From Phycisphaerae bacterium (lineage in GTDB: Bacteria; Planctomycetota; Phycisphaerae; Sedimentisphaerales; UBA12454), in the NCBI GenBank assembly GCA_026386845.1, contig JAPLMW010000073.1, positions 1 to 32,381 of the forward strand: a stretch of 32,381 nucleotides of DNA, in the 5' to 3' direction. Numbering within the stretch: the first letter of the stretch is position 1; every line of letters begins with the position of its first letter. The notes beneath the pieces were generated by a model, which ran no database searches, was not told the DNA's origin, and worked only from the letters and a program-made list of their open reading frames with translations. Position numbers and translations under genes: made by a program. Positions 1 to 31,903 of this stretch are shown in pieces.

Positions 1-285
1 CAACAAATCGGATATTCTTTCAGTTTTGACGAATTTCGAATCTTGTATCAATCTTAACCAGTAATTGGTTTCCCTGGCCTCTTTCGAAGCAATACACATT
101 TTTGCATAAAAGTCTTTTTTGCTTTGCCCTGCCAAAGCTTCCTCCACATTAGCGCCAATACTTGTACCGGCTCTGACCAACTGAGATGTCAACTCATAAT
201 GACCTTTTTGCTTTAAGTAGCTGCACAATTTGATAACACGCAAAGCAAAGTCATAGCTTTTTTGTTTTATGATGCTATTTGGCAT
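1..285 (-). CDS. Four-helix-bundle protein (23S rRNA IVP-like), 3' end cut by window
   Basis: The frame opens at an ATG (283-285) and stays open for 95 codons to the window edge, so the C-terminus is missing. Visible hallmarks of the four-helix-bundle/23S-IVP family are an N-terminal helix with KSYDFALRVIKLC, the block LVRAGTSIGANVEEA (usually S-[IV]-x-A-N-[IV]-x-E-[AG]) and a following KKDFYAKMCIASKEARE helix. Family members are small helical proteins of about 115-140 residues with no settled biochemical role; some lie within intervening sequences of 23S rRNA genes. The gene sits 39 bp behind metY on the same strand, with no room for a promoter of its own, so it is probably read from the upstream operon. 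A weak AAGG lies 11 bases before the start. The spacer is a degenerate 7-bp repeat array. Confidence 0.85.
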   Translation of the reverse strand, partial: MPNSIIKQKSYDFALRVIKLCSYLKQKGHYELTSQLVRAGTSIGANVEEALAGQSKKDFYAKMCIASKEARETNYWLRLIQDSKFVKTERISDLL

Positions 286-300
286 CGTCCGACAACCTTA

Positions 301-2528
<2,228 letters not shown>

Positions 2529-7506: not shown

Positions 7507-8250
7507 TCACCATTTTATCTGATGAAGTTTTTCCATATTTTTATAATCCGTCATATCGAATCCGAGAGCGGTAACGGTAATAAAGCCGTCCGCCAGCACA
7601 AGTGTATCCGAAGGTATATTCGTATCCCGATGGTCTCCGCCCGCAAGCTGATAAAGCATCTGTCCGGTATCGTTTTTGTTTTTTACAAAATACTCCTCAA
7701 AGCCCATCGTGGACTGCGGCACAACCTTGATTCCTTTCGGCTTTCCAACTGAAAGCCGCGGGATATTTATATTAATCACTCCCGATAAGCTGTGCATTCC
7801 TATTTTATTTATAACCTCAACACAATATTTTGCGGCAATATTGAAATCCATTTCTTCTTCGTGCGCACAACTAAGAGCAATTGCAGGAATACGATAAAAG
7901 GCCGCTTCCATCGCAGCGGCAACCGTGCCGGAATAATATACGTTAATACCGACATTCGCGCCGTTATTGATGCCGCTTACGACAATGTCCGGTTTTTGGG
8001 GACACAACTCCATAATCGCGAGTTTGACGCAGTCTGCGGGCGAACCGCTGACGCTGTAGCCGCTAAACTGATTTTCTATCTCAACCTTTTCACAGGCCAG
8101 CGGCTCAAAAACGGTGATGCTGTGTCCTGCGCCGCTCATCCTGTCCGAAGGTGCGACGACAGTTACATTACCCAGCTTTATCAGTTCCTTATAAGCCGCT
8201 GCTATGCCGGGGGCTTGAATTCCATCGTCGTTTGTCAATAAAATATTCAT
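7507..8250 (-). CDS. surE: 5'-nucleotidase SurE
   Basis: SurE removes phosphate from nucleoside 5'- and 3'-monophosphates using a divalent metal. The N-terminal MNILLTNDDGIQAPGI carries the metal-binding DD pair; the SGSPADCVK block and SGINNGANVGINVYYSGTV complete the active site. The 247 residues are normal. The ATG (8248-8250) directly abuts one arm of a 14-bp inverted repeat, so the bases just before it are repeat-derived; AAAAAAGG lies 9 bases upstream. A TATACT -10 at 8282-8287 lies in the repeat loop. Confidence 0.95.
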   Translation of the reverse strand: MNILLTNDDGIQAPGIAAAYKELIKLGNVTVVAPSDRMSGAGHSITVFEPLACEKVEIENQFSGYSVSGSPADCVKLAIMELCPQKPDIVVSGINNGANVGINVYYSGTVAAAMEAAFYRIPAIALSCAHEEEMDFNIAAKYCVEVINKIGMHSLSGVININIPRLSVGKPKGIKVVPQSTMGFEEYFVKNKNDTGQMLYQLAGGDHRDTNIPSDTLVLADGFITVTALGFDMTDYKNMEKLHQIKW

Positions 8251-8350
8251 CCCGTTAGACCTTTTTTCAATTTACGCAACCAGTATAAAATGTGTCTGTC
8301 TTTTTGAACACTAAAATATAGCATATAAAACCAATTAGGTCTAACGGGAT
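8249..8350. repeat. 102-bp element with 14-bp inverted ends (CCCGTTAGA family, copy 1)
   Basis: ATCCCGTTAGACCT at 8249-8262 is an exact inverted copy of AGGTCTAACGGGAT at 8337-8350, enclosing 74 AT-rich bases. The left arm overlaps the surE start codon. A second pair of CCCGTTAGA/TCTAACGGG arms with a similar span occurs at 31807-31903, also upstream of a minus-strand gene. Confidence 0.75.
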
Positions 8351-8413
8351 TCATATGCTCACTATAGTACCTGATAGCCTGCAATAATCAACAATCAATC
8401 CCTTAGGGACAAG

Positions 8414-22053: not shown

Positions 22054-22106
22054 AATTTTCCCTGTTCCATACACTACCTAATCGGCAATGAATTTTCAAG
22101 TATTGA

Positions 22107-22156
22107 CCCCGCACCTTCAAAATATTTAATTATATGGAATTAAGGAAGGTGCGGGG
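22107..22156. repeat. 12-bp inverted repeat between divergent gatC and E2 genes
   Basis: CCCCGCACCTTC (22107-22118) is an exact inverted copy of GAAGGTGCGGGG (22145-22156), with a 26-base AT-rich loop. TTGA flanks follow both arms. Similar GCACCTT-CCCC palindromes are, from memory, interspersed repeats elsewhere. The right arm runs straight into the -35 hexamer of the E2 gene. Confidence 0.65.
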
Positions 22157-22185
22157 TTGACAATATGCTTTTATTAAAGTATTTT
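22157..22185 (+). promoter_or_regulatory. Promoter of the E2 gene with repeat-adjacent -35
   Basis: TTGACA (22157-22162), 17 bases, TATTTT (22180-22185). The predicted start near 22192 excludes the TTG at 22187 as start codon and supports the ATG at 22217. Confidence 0.5.
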
Positions 22186-28661: not shown

Positions 28662-29939
28662 CTACTTCCTGAAGATTGTCTGGCTTCTGCCGGGGCCGAC
28701 GCCGATAATCGTTACTGGCAAATCTATAATTTCCTCAACCGTTCTGATATATTTTTGCCCCTGCTTCGGTAATTTGTTAAAATCGGCAGCCTGTGTAATT
28801 TCCTCACTGAATCCTTTGAGAGTCTCGAATCGGCATTTTACTTTTGCCAGCCTGTCGATATTCGACGGAAACATTTTAACTTCTTTGCCGTCGATAGTAT
28901 AACCTGTGCAAATTTTAATCTCATCGAGACCCGCAAGCGTATCGAGATGCATCATAGCTATTTCATTTATTCCGCCGATTTTCGCGGCGTATTTCACCAC
29001 CATAGTATCGAACCAGCCGCACCGTCTCGGTCTGCCGGTTGTCGTGCCGTACTCGTGTCCCTTGTCGCGGATATATTGGCCGATTTCATCGTTGAGTTCC
29101 GAAGGAAACGGCCCTGCTCCTACACGGGTCGTATAGGCCTTGACAACGCCGATAAACTTATCAATCATCTGCACAGGCACGCCGCAGCCGGGGCCGACGC
29201 CAAGAGAGCTGGCGTTCGAGCTTGTAACATACGGAAATGTCCCGTGGTCAAGATCGAGAAGAGCGCCCTGTGCGCCTTCGAAAAGAATATTTTTGCCTGA
29301 TTCAATTTCCTGATGGAGGTATTCCGTGGTGTTGCGGATATATTTCGAAAGCCGCTTGGAATATATTTTGCATTTTTCAAAAATCTCTGCCGCCTTGATT
29401 AGCTCGGCATTATATAAAGCCGCGAAAATTTTGTTTTTGTAATTAACTATCTTCTCAAGTTTATCTTTAAAATTTTCAAGGTCAAGCAAATCAGTCATCC
29501 TGACAGCATAGCTTCTGCCGACCTTGTCGGAATAGCACGGTCCGATACCACGGACCGTAGTGCCGATTTTGTTATCGCCTAACGACGCCTCTCTTAATTT
29601 GTCTTCCGCCTTGTGGTAGTCGAGCACAATATGAGCGCTTTCACTGATAAATAATCTGCCGTCAAGCGTTATTCCTCTTTGAGCCAGACCGTCAATTTCC
29701 TCCAGCAGAACTTCAGGGTCAACTACAACGCCGTTGGCGATAACGCAGATAGTTTTATCTCGTATCGCTCCGCTTGGCAGAAGATGCAGCGCGAATTTCT
29801 TATCGCCGATAACGACCGTATGGCCGGCGTTTGCTCCGCCGCCATAGCGAACGACTATGTCGTTTTTCTCGGCAAGAATATCCACGACCTTGCCTTTGCC
29901 TTCATCGCCCCATTGCAGACCAACAACGCAGGTATTCAT
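28662..29939 (-). CDS. purA: Adenylosuccinate synthetase
   Basis: Commits IMP to AMP synthesis using GTP and aspartate. The 425 residues are full length: VVGLQWGDEGKGKVVD (GDEGKGK loop), GGANAGHTVV, GTTVRGIGPCYSDK, FEGAQGALLDLDHGTFPYVTSSN and TTGRPRRCGWFD. GAGGA lies 9 bases before the ATG. It heads the purA-uppS-cdsA-phoH-HD-ybeY-recO block and ends 5 bases before the uppS start. Its leader contains a copy of a CACGAAT-type short repeat. Confidence 0.96.
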   Translation of the reverse strand: MNTCVVGLQWGDEGKGKVVDILAEKNDIVVRYGGGANAGHTVVIGDKKFALHLLPSGAIRDKTICVIANGVVVDPEVLLEEIDGLAQRGITLDGRLFISESAHIVLDYHKAEDKLREASLGDNKIGTTVRGIGPCYSDKVGRSYAVRMTDLLDLENFKDKLEKIVNYKNKIFAALYNAELIKAAEIFEKCKIYSKRLSKYIRNTTEYLHQEIESGKNILFEGAQGALLDLDHGTFPYVTSSNASSLGVGPGCGVPVQMIDKFIGVVKAYTTRVGAGPFPSELNDEIGQYIRDKGHEYGTTTGRPRRCGWFDTMVVKYAAKIGGINEIAMMHLDTLAGLDEIKICTGYTIDGKEVKMFPSNIDRLAKVKCRFETLKGFSEEITQAADFNKLPKQGQKYIRTVEEIIDLPVTIIGVGPGRSQTIFRK

Positions 29940-29958
29940 AACGATAATTCCTCAAAAA

Positions 29959-29977
29959 ACCACGAATGGACACGAAT
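29959..29977. repeat. CACGAAT-type interspersed short repeat in the purA leader
   Basis: ACCACGAATGGACACGAAT holds two CACGAAT heptamers 10 bp apart. From memory this string (ATTCGTGTCCATTCGTGGT on the other strand) is scattered through many environmental bacterial genomes. It lies about 20 bases before the purA start, in the 46-bp gap to the upstream gene. Confidence 0.5.
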
Positions 29978-29985
29978 CGTTTCGG

Positions 29986-30447
29986 TTAGCCGGCGATTTT
30001 CGACACAAGCAGTTCAAGGACGGCATTAAGATTATCATAAGTGCGGTCGCTGATTTTACGCTGTGATTTTTGCCCGTCAGGCAATTTATACTCTACTATA
30101 AAAAAGCCTTTTGTGTCAAAATCGGTTTTATTTATACTGTCGATTGAACTATATGGAATTTTGTCTTTTTCACTGAAGATAATCGCCTCATCATCGGCGA
30201 CAAGCTTTTTATCCTTTGCCTTCCAGAACCAGACAGCAAAAATTACCGCCCCGGCCAAAAAAAACGGCGGTGATTTCTGATTGAAAGCGAGCGTCGAGTC
30301 GGGTATCCCGAGATTTGTGTGCTTTTTGATAAACGTCTTGTTAAAAAAACCATCGTAAGCGAAAAATGCCGCTGCTATCAGCAGCATCACAATATATATC
30401 TTGAAATTCGTTTTTTTGTACTGACAATATGGTGCAATAACCGCCAT
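29986..30447 (-). CDS. Two-helix membrane protein with PH-like tail, unknown function
   Basis: The 153 residues start at an ATG with a strong GGAGG 5 bases upstream; a TTG at 30459 in the same frame is rejected. Two hydrophobic helices (FKIYIVMLLIAAAFFAYDGFF and PFFLAGAVIFAVWFW) form a hairpin. A cytoplasmic beta-rich tail follows, with AIIFSEKDKIPYSSIDSINKTDFDTKGFFIVEY, which looks like a bacterial PH domain. No function can be assigned. It is 46 bp ahead of purA on the same strand and may be its leader gene. Confidence 0.75.
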   Translation of the reverse strand: MAVIAPYCQYKKTNFKIYIVMLLIAAAFFAYDGFFNKTFIKKHTNLGIPDSTLAFNQKSPPFFLAGAVIFAVWFWKAKDKKLVADDEAIIFSEKDKIPYSSIDSINKTDFDTKGFFIVEYKLPDGQKSQRKISDRTYDNLNAVLELLVSKIAG

Positions 30448-30503
30448 TTTAACCTCCAATTTAATTGCGTTTTCGTTTATTAGTCACACTGTATCTTCTT
30501 TTT

Positions 30504-30540
30504 AGGAAGTAAGGAATTAAGGACGTAAAGAAATAAGGAA
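30504..30540. repeat. Left inverted terminal array of the four-helix-bundle element
   Basis: A purine-rich degenerate 8-bp array (units such as AAGTAAGG, AATTAAGG, ACGTAAAG, AAATAAGG). It matches the reverse complement of 31017-31053 at 30 of 37 positions without gaps. Confidence 0.7.
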
Positions 30541-30580
30541 AAACAAAGAAGCATTAGTAAATTTATCAACCTTTATCATA

Positions 30581-31000
30581 TTATTCTTTCTCAAAAGTTT
30601 CCCAGTTATCCATTAAAGAATTGAGCATTGCTCCGACTCTATTGTATTCATTGTAAAGTCTTGTGTAAATGTCCGGTGAAATATATTTACATTCTTTTGA
30701 AAAATCGAGCCAAACTTTTGTTTCTTCGCAAGAACCATTGGAATCATTAAGATGCCTGATAAAAACATTTTCATATCTTCTCTTTGCCCAGCCTTCCGCT
30801 ATATTGGCCGGCACTGACCTTGAAGATTTTCTAATTTGACTTACAAGAGAATAAATTTCTTCCTTTGGAAATTTCTTTGTTATCTCGAATATTTCCATAG
30901 CTAATTTATATGATAATTGATAAACGCTTAAGTCCCTGTAGGTCTTGATTACTGAATTAATTTTATTATTATCTTTTTTTTGAATTTGGCAATCTGCCAT
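30581..31000 (-). CDS. Four-helix-bundle protein (23S rRNA IVP-like)
   Basis: A complete member with 139 residues. An extended polar N-terminus (1-17) is followed by YRDLSVYQLSYKLAMEIFEIT, SLVSQIRKSSRSVPANIAEGWAKR (family signature), FIRHLNDSNGSCEETKVWLDFS and a C-terminal ARLYNEYNRVGAMLNSL-like helix, the four helices of the fold. Biochemical role is unknown; the fold is pentameric and basic in solved relatives, as I recall. The ribosome site AAGGA lies in the repetitive flank 9 bases upstream. The gene is 44 bp behind the unknown 250-residue gene and co-directional, the same geometry as the copy behind metY. Confidence 0.88.
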   Translation of the reverse strand: MADCQIQKKDNNKINSVIKTYRDLSVYQLSYKLAMEIFEITKKFPKEEIYSLVSQIRKSSRSVPANIAEGWAKRRYENVFIRHLNDSNGSCEETKVWLDFSKECKYISPDIYTRLYNEYNRVGAMLNSLMDNWETFEKE

Positions 31001-31016
31001 TTTTTAGTATCCTTAC

Positions 31017-31053
31017 TTCTTTATTTCCTTGCTTCCTTATTTCCTTATCTCCT
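31017..31053. repeat. Right inverted terminal array of the four-helix-bundle element
   Basis: On the minus strand this reads as degenerate 8-bp units AGATAAGG, AAATAAGG, AAGCAAGG, AAATAAAG. It overlaps the last two codons and TAA of the upstream gene. Confidence 0.7.
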
Positions 31054-31797
31054 GTGCGCTATGGCATTGGTCAGGGGCATCACGAAATTCGGCACAACTT
31101 TTTCATCCATAAAATCAACAGACATCCGGCAGAGCCTGTCAAAAACGGTTTTAAGGTCAAAATCTCTGCCGGGACAAGGGTACTGCCTTATTGTCATATA
31201 CAGGCTTATGGGTTTATTCTCATCGAATTTTTTGTTGCGGATTTCAGATTCCTCTGTTCGACTATCCACCGTCAGTCTGGCACGAGTCGTACAATCATCG
31301 TCAAGTGCGACTACCACTGCGGGAGAAAGACTCAATGGTCCGGCTCCGGGGCAATTAAAAATCTGGGAAAAAGCCGAACCGCTGAACAAGGCTTCGGCTA
31401 TTATCTCATTGTGATTGCCCGCGCAATCAAAATCCATCCCGAAGGTCAAATCGACGCTGTCTATATCCAGACTTCGTACTCCCAGCATATACGGCACAAG
31501 TTCAATTACCACCTTTGGCAGCTCGAATGCCTCTTGAAAACTTTCAGGATTAACAAAGCCCGAACCGAGCCGGTCAATATCGACACTGACCCAGCGGTTT
31601 CGCCCGGCCTGCGGGTCATCTTCAAGACAGTAGCCGGCGTCGCCATCCCGTGCCAGGGTCTTCATCGAGGGAAACTGTTTGGTTATTCTTTCAAAGAATG
31701 TAAGCAGGGTCTCCCTTTCGCTCGGCAGGTCGAAACGGGTATTTACATACATATCAACGAAAAAATCATCACAAAACGAACTATAACTAATCGACAT
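31045..31797 (-). CDS. Conserved-looking protein of unknown function, 250 residues
   Basis: I do not recognise the family. The protein is soluble, acidic, and lacks a signal peptide or membrane segment. It contains RWVSVDIDRLGSGFVNPESF, LPYMLGVRSLDIDSVDLTFGMDFDCAGNH-type strands, and YMTIRQYPCPGRDFD, suggesting an alternating alpha/beta fold. A 253-codon frame on the opposite strand is its shadow; the minus frame has a good GAGG 5 bases before the ATG and a more protein-like composition. Its final two Arg codons and stop come from the repeat array of the downstream element. A CCCGTTAGA inverted repeat lies directly upstream. Confidence 0.75.
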   Translation of the reverse strand: MSISYSSFCDDFFVDMYVNTRFDLPSERETLLTFFERITKQFPSMKTLARDGDAGYCLEDDPQAGRNRWVSVDIDRLGSGFVNPESFQEAFELPKVVIELVPYMLGVRSLDIDSVDLTFGMDFDCAGNHNEIIAEALFSGSAFSQIFNCPGAGPLSLSPAVVVALDDDCTTRARLTVDSRTEESEIRNKKFDENKPISLYMTIRQYPCPGRDFDLKTVFDRLCRMSVDFMDEKVVPNFVMPLTNAIAHRR

Positions 31798-31806
31798 AAA
31801 GCCTCA

Positions 31807-31903
31807 TCCCGTTAGAAAAACGACAATAAATAACTACCGGCAAATCCTGTTAGAAAAGACTGCAATACAAGGCTTTCTATCGGCCTGCAATTTTCTAACG
31901 GGA
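31807..31903. repeat. 97-bp element with 13-bp inverted ends (CCCGTTAGA family, copy 2)
   Basis: TCCCGTTAGAAAA (31807-31819) is an exact inverted copy of TTTTCTAACGGGA (31891-31903). A third, imperfect left arm TCCTGTTAGAAAAG lies at 31844-31857, so the right arm could pair with either. It sits 10 bases upstream of the 250-residue gene, as copy 1 does at surE. Confidence 0.75.

Follow-up and report, generated by a model that had tools for sequence, protein, structure and literature searches.

Intervening sequences (IVSs) of 23S rRNA genes are the closest described counterpart of the locus considered here. In Coxiella the 23S IVS carries an S23p open reading frame (ORF), has inverted ends, is excised by RNase III and includes, upstream of the ORF, tandem heptamers (GACAGAT) that vary between strains (PMC4990558), and IVP ORFs have also been reported inside 16S and 23S insertions of Candidate Phyla Radiation (CPR) bacteria (PMC11270868). 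Proteins of the PF05635/TIGR02436 family are widespread, structures of relatives of the protein studied here have been solved (2gsc and 2rld in the Protein Data Bank), and their function is unsettled. Here we analysed a contig of 32,381 nucleotides from a Phycisphaerae bacterium (assembly GCA_026386845.1, contig JAPLMW010000073.1, positions 1 to 32,381; hereafter the window), in which a PF05635/TIGR02436 four-helix-bundle gene stands between inverted arrays of an octamer word (AAGGAAGT-type). From this unit, and from its counterparts in other genomes, it looks as though PF05635 genes form the core of a mobile hairpin element that has been overlooked. The unit is composed of the following features.

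30503..31054, minus strand: the whole inserted unit (left arm, gene and right arm), which is absent from relatives; the gap between the two host genes is 588 bp here and 13-87 bp at the orthologous position in most syntenic relatives
30581..31000, minus strand: four-helix-bundle gene of 139 aa, PF05635 (23S_rRNA_IVP)/TIGR02436, with weak diversity-generating retroelement (DGR) Avd matches, from ORF and profile searches
30503..30542, plus strand: arm downstream of the gene, five octamers TAGGAAGT AAGGAATT AAGGACGT AAAGAAAT AAGGAAAA, from the repeat finder and word reading
31007..31054, minus strand: arm upstream of the gene, an inverted octamer array (GTATCCTTAC...) of six words, ending in the stop-codon region of the upstream gene

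The repeat finder placed the arms at 30504-30540 and 31017-31053, each of 37 nt and with 81% pairing (30/37), while in another register 30504-30539 pairs with 31010-31045 at 83%. Local complementarity of the flanks gave a pairing score of 21, compared with a mean of 8.5 (sd 1.15, maximum 15) in dinucleotide shuffles, none of which reached 21 (0/3000). The preliminary description had proposed inverted 8-bp arrays that match at 30 of 37 positions, as the 37-bp ends of a 550-bp unit; both points are borne out, with the arms now resolved into five and six octamers and the unit into ~552 bp. The repeat unit of the arms is 8 nt, the loop that holds the gene is 464 nt, and the right arm's outer word contains the stop codon (31045-31047) with which the upstream gene ends.

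The encoded protein matches PF05635 with an E value of 3.4e-36, which passes the cut-off, and TIGR02436 with 2e-33, alongside weak Avd-type matches (bAvd, 1e-7; DivGenRetAVD, 2e-8). Its pI is 8.35, near the family median of 8.6, and pN/pS values of 0.09-0.13 between orthologous pairs indicate that the gene is kept under purifying selection. A search with this protein (P0001) found 11 gene copies in its own genome and the PF05635 profile found 13. It is the sole ORF of the unit, and ORF and profile searches of the unit detected no transposase between the terminal inverted repeats, the arrangement that defines an insertion sequence.

The unit resembles the 23S IVSs in its protein family (PF05635), its stem-forming inverted ends and its size of ~0.4-0.6 kb, and its word arrays recall the tandem heptamers upstream of the ORF in the Coxiella IVS (PMC4990558). 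However, it lies between protein-coding genes, one of 250 aa and one of 157 aa beside purA, and not in an rRNA gene; moreover, its arms are word arrays, and the genome has dispersed hairpins of the same word that enclose no gene. The likeness to a 23S IVS outside an rRNA gene, as had been suggested from the sequence, is real, but because the defining rRNA location is missing the unit is IVS-like and not an IVS. The neighbouring host genes are as follows.

31045..31797, minus strand: upstream host gene of 250 aa with no family match; in relatives its ortholog stands immediately before the 157-aa gene
29986..30459, minus strand: downstream host gene, 157 aa if started at TTG, with an ATG at 30447 the likelier start (GGAGG at 30457-30453), from the ORF list and synteny
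28662..29939, minus strand: purA, next in the conserved gene order, from a profile match and synteny

Orthologs of the upstream host gene were found in 32 of 40 relatives, and in the syntenic ones it is followed by the ortholog of the 157-aa gene and then by purA. None of the syntenic relatives examined has the four-helix-bundle gene at this site, which is empty in dozens of them; a few more distant genomes hold 0.7-1.2 kb in the gap, likewise without the gene. The window unit is thus an insertion between two genes of conserved order, and the empty orthologous sites that had been named as the test of insertion were indeed observed. In the window the conserved host sequence CACAGGAGATAA(stop) passes directly into the array, and the identity of the outer word GGAGATAA with this stop context suggested that words might be copied from the target. 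We rejected this as a general rule, as words track protein clades at unlinked sites and across phyla. Separately, a short one-direction array of word-like style, CCACGAATGGACACGAATCG, lies at 29945-29980, immediately upstream of purA.

Insertion polymorphism was also observed within a single genus (g15), represented by four genomes, two of them without any copy, in which seven gaps were compared via their joined flanks. The gap between the signal recognition particle (SRP) RNA gene and dnaX is occupied in G029 (434 bp) and empty in G039 and G025 (38-nt spacer), with flanks that are 98% identical. At another gap G029 and G039 hold unrelated elements with different words between flanks of ~92-94% identity, while G025 and G021 are empty. 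Other gaps are filled in one or two of the genomes and empty in the remainder. The stop codon of the upstream gene is often supplied by the array. One element (L038) occupies the same site as its counterparts L146 and L176 but is flipped in place with respect to the flanks on both sides, a sign that its arms may have recombined. Where G029 carries the element L163, G039 (L217) has a 694-bp gene pair with the look, as judged by eye, of an MNT nucleotidyltransferase and a HEPN partner. In addition, G029 and G025 have a gene-less hairpin, ACCACGGATTACACAGATTTCACGG ... CCGTGAAATGCGTGGT (L203, L205), in a gap where G039 has a gene-bearing element.

To compare arms across the gene family we took 129 distinct genes from 40 genomes and aligned the 200 nt upstream of each with the reverse-complemented 200 nt downstream of it. 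The median score of own pairs was 16.5, against a cross-pair mean of 8.5 and a cross-pair 99th percentile of 15.0, and 77/129 genes exceeded that percentile compared with 1/91 control ORFs. A gene's own partner ranked first of 129 in 52 cases and in the top five in 96. This bears out the expectation that inverted arrays would also flank other family members. The best word period among the 77 arms was 7 in 38, 14 in 25 and 8 in eight, upstream arms are ~35 nt long and rich in purines, and both neighbours are co-directional with the gene in 100/129. Almost all copies in the window's own genome have facing short-word arrays, each locus with a different word. A second four-helix-bundle gene is also present at the contig edge of the window (1-345; gene at ~19-282, minus strand), with an upstream array GAGTTCTTAATTTTGAGTTATTAGTTCTTAG; the gene upstream of this copy is common to L078, L040 and L118, all with a similar word.

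In the protein tree, members of a clade have common words even at different sites. Among pairs with no common flank, mean word sharing was 12.8 at protein distances below 0.5 and 8.3 above 1.5, and for pairs at distances below 0.8 none of 2000 permutations reached the observed mean. Relatives of a CAAAGG-clade protein occur in Nitrospirae, KSB1, Bacteroidota, Verrucomicrobia, Desulfobacteria, Elusimicrobia and others, and most have facing arms with the same AAAGGCAC / AAAGGTTC / CAGAAGG words. Carriers of the AAAGG-word clade include several species of Flavobacterium and Aquimarina. Only 10/77 genes in this sample exceeded its own cross-pair 99th percentile, a statistic made less sharp here by one word being common to the whole sample. 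That similar proteins share words at unrelated sites and in other phyla indicates that the arms belong to the element. Furthermore, at orthologous sites an arm matches its own partner (18.4) better than the arm of its ortholog (13.4; p 5e-8), which indicates that both arms change together.

We searched for gene-less copies using the word AAGGAAGTAAGGAAATAAGGAA with up to three mismatches and the reversed pattern as control. The window's own genome gave 115 matches compared with two for the control, and by a count from the listed hits these fall in ~45 places, mostly as gene-less hairpins. In the 18 facing pairs that could be resolved, exactly five words make up 13/18 left and 14/18 right arms. 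Loops are 1-115 nt long and unrelated to each other, and one hairpin (L344) is nested in the loop of a hairpin with a different word. Outside the family of genomes to which the window belongs the word is almost absent, relatives of other families not exceeding control level. Gaps again differ between genomes: with gene names assigned by eye on the basis of protein sequence, the gap between ychF and SDH measures 247 nt in the window's own genome and 21 nt in G006 and G009, an ABC-transporter gap is 168 nt versus 30-33 nt in relatives, and the groEL-dnaJ gap holds different-word hairpins in different genomes and is 7 nt in G001. Of 11 gene-less hairpin gaps, seven match the arms of gene-bearing elements beyond all 100 shuffles. 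A second family shows the same dispersal: G029, which has the perfect-armed L163 element (AGTTATC), contains 120 matches to the heptamer (control 0), a word with no matches in 5/10 genomes tested. A strict ungapped hairpin census of 306 kb of the sample returned one word hairpin, the finder being too strict for imperfect arms.

Other palindromes in the window are of a different kind. Those at 8243-8356 and 31807-31903 have ends ATCCCGTTAGACCT / TCCCGTTAGAAAA and loops of ~70 nt, and with the same ends in L002, L005, L364 and L379 they form a second, non-word family resembling miniature inverted-repeat transposable elements (MITEs). Another, at 22106-22157 and in L374, L379 and L380, has ends (A)TCCCGCACCTTC ... 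GAAGGTGCGGGAT and occurs several times in the genome sample.

Three further described systems invite comparison. Many short, intergenic, gene-less hairpins together with a single gene-bearing copy with the same ends recall repetitive extragenic palindromes and their associated transposase (REP/RAYT), and MITEs with their parent element; here, however, the gene is no transposase, the ends are tandem word arrays, the loops are mutually unrelated and no target-site duplication was seen. The four-helix bundle is homologous to the Avd protein (bAvd) of DGRs, but no reverse transcriptase lies beside the gene, and the unit is not a DGR. The only PF00078 reverse transcriptase of the window's own genome (L192, G000:C65:19304-19774) is on a different contig and is nearest to group II intron and defence reverse transcriptase models, below their cut-offs. 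Several genomes with 5-13 copies have no PF00078 gene at all; a reverse transcriptase is therefore not needed for maintenance, and we rejected a resident one as the mover. The short tandemly repeated repetitive (STRR) sequences of cyanobacteria are intergenic arrays of degenerate heptamers and in this resemble the word arrays, but they are known as one-direction arrays and are not known to be linked to a protein. No account of word-array hairpins around PF05635 genes outside rRNA turned up in a search of the open-licence literature, which also took in STRR and four-helix-bundle genes flanked by inverted or tandem repeats.

Taken together, we lean towards a mobile family of IVS-like hairpins that lies outside rRNA and has this unit as its gene-bearing member, a reading we hold to be somewhat more probable than its denial. 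The preliminary description had raised a transposase-free mobile element, and the insertion polymorphism supports this, mobility being deduced from sequence comparison. The element would consist of inverted arms of about five copies of a 7- or 8-nt word, enclosing either an IVP/Avd-like gene or a short loop. The protein probably forms a homopentameric ring, as its solved relatives do, and may recognise its own word in the paired arms, help copies of the element to enter intergenic gaps and promote the copying of arm-bounded units, with gene-less hairpins as the putative non-autonomous copies, comparable to REP hairpins or the MITEs of a parent element. The copying might be carried out by host repair, by template switching during replication or by a reverse transcriptase acting in trans. 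In the operon transcript the arms would probably pair as the stem of one long hairpin, open to cutting by RNase III as in 23S IVSs, and such cutting may keep the insertion tolerable. The suggestion that the RNA folds as one long hairpin agrees with the predicted fold of the transcript, in which the arms pair (z -3.9).

Several observations weigh against this reading. Approximately 40% of the 129 genes show no arm pairing above threshold, and gene-less copies of the L163 heptamer are mostly one-direction arrays rather than hairpins. In G008, a 93% complete draft, there are 37 matches to the AAGGAAGT word and no P0001-like gene, so the gene is not needed for hairpins to persist; gene loss or another mover would explain this case. 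Within g15 the host spacer is replaced, not split, by the element, and no target-site duplication was seen between occupied and empty sites, where array ends are degenerate. The association between word and protein may reflect co-inheritance without recognition. Lastly, arm mismatches show no G:U excess on the sense strand (90 vs 77, p 0.35), which lends no support to selection for an RNA hairpin in its own right, and we dropped such an excess as proof of RNA selection.

The same data can be read in other ways. The arms may act in mRNA as the ends of a 23S IVS do, pairing in the operon transcript to give a stem whose cleavage by RNase III releases the mRNA inside; hairpins would then be retained as insulators or for RNA processing, and the protein would be a passenger or local regulator, not a mover. 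The pairing of arms in the predicted RNA, the co-directional neighbours of most genes, the RNase III excision of the heptamer-bearing Coxiella IVS (PMC4990558) and the element in the SRP RNA-dnaX spacer are all in line with this. We nevertheless consider it unlikely, given the lack of sense-strand G:U bias, the tracking of protein clades by words across phyla, and a turnover of different-word hairpins within one gap that is fast and fits mobile copies better than conserved RNA signals.

Likewise, replication slippage could make the arrays and template switching within the hairpin (quasipalindrome correction) could keep the arms alike, the gene being caught between facing arrays and taking no part in their spread. 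Arms that drift together and match their own partner best at the same site, the in-place inversion of L038, and gene-less arrays where the cognate gene is missing would all follow; what slippage leaves unexplained is the dispersal of one-word hairpins over ~45 gaps of a single genome, the sharing of a word by similar proteins across unlinked sites and different phyla, and the repeated occurrence of one gene family within the arms, and we think it rather improbable. Least credible, and in our judgement very improbable, is the reading in which the protein is a settled regulator, controlling its own operon and others with the same word hairpin by binding to the arms, and in which duplication has spread this small regulon. 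Selection to conserve the protein and the many same-word hairpins between operon genes would suit a regulator, but most relatives lack both gene and hairpins at the same sites, hairpins persist where the cognate gene was not found, and different elements occupy the same gap within one genus.

Returning to the mobile hairpin family, a broader claim is possible but doubtful: that IVP/Avd-like four-helix-bundle proteins as a family are sequence-specific hairpin-word binders of a class of transposase-free mobile elements, with one protomer of the pentamer per word of a five-word arm, and that 23S IVSs and the dispersed word hairpins of many phyla are special cases. The one-word-per-protomer model is drawn from five words per arm and five-chain crystal structures, which is so far a numerical coincidence. 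If the arms are the sites of binding and mobility, a single model would join 23S IVSs, DGR Avd and scattered word hairpins, and each protein would gain a predicted ligand, its own word array, making its function directly testable. Such a class of mobile element, if real, would have no recognisable gene for a transposase, a recombinase or a reverse transcriptase.
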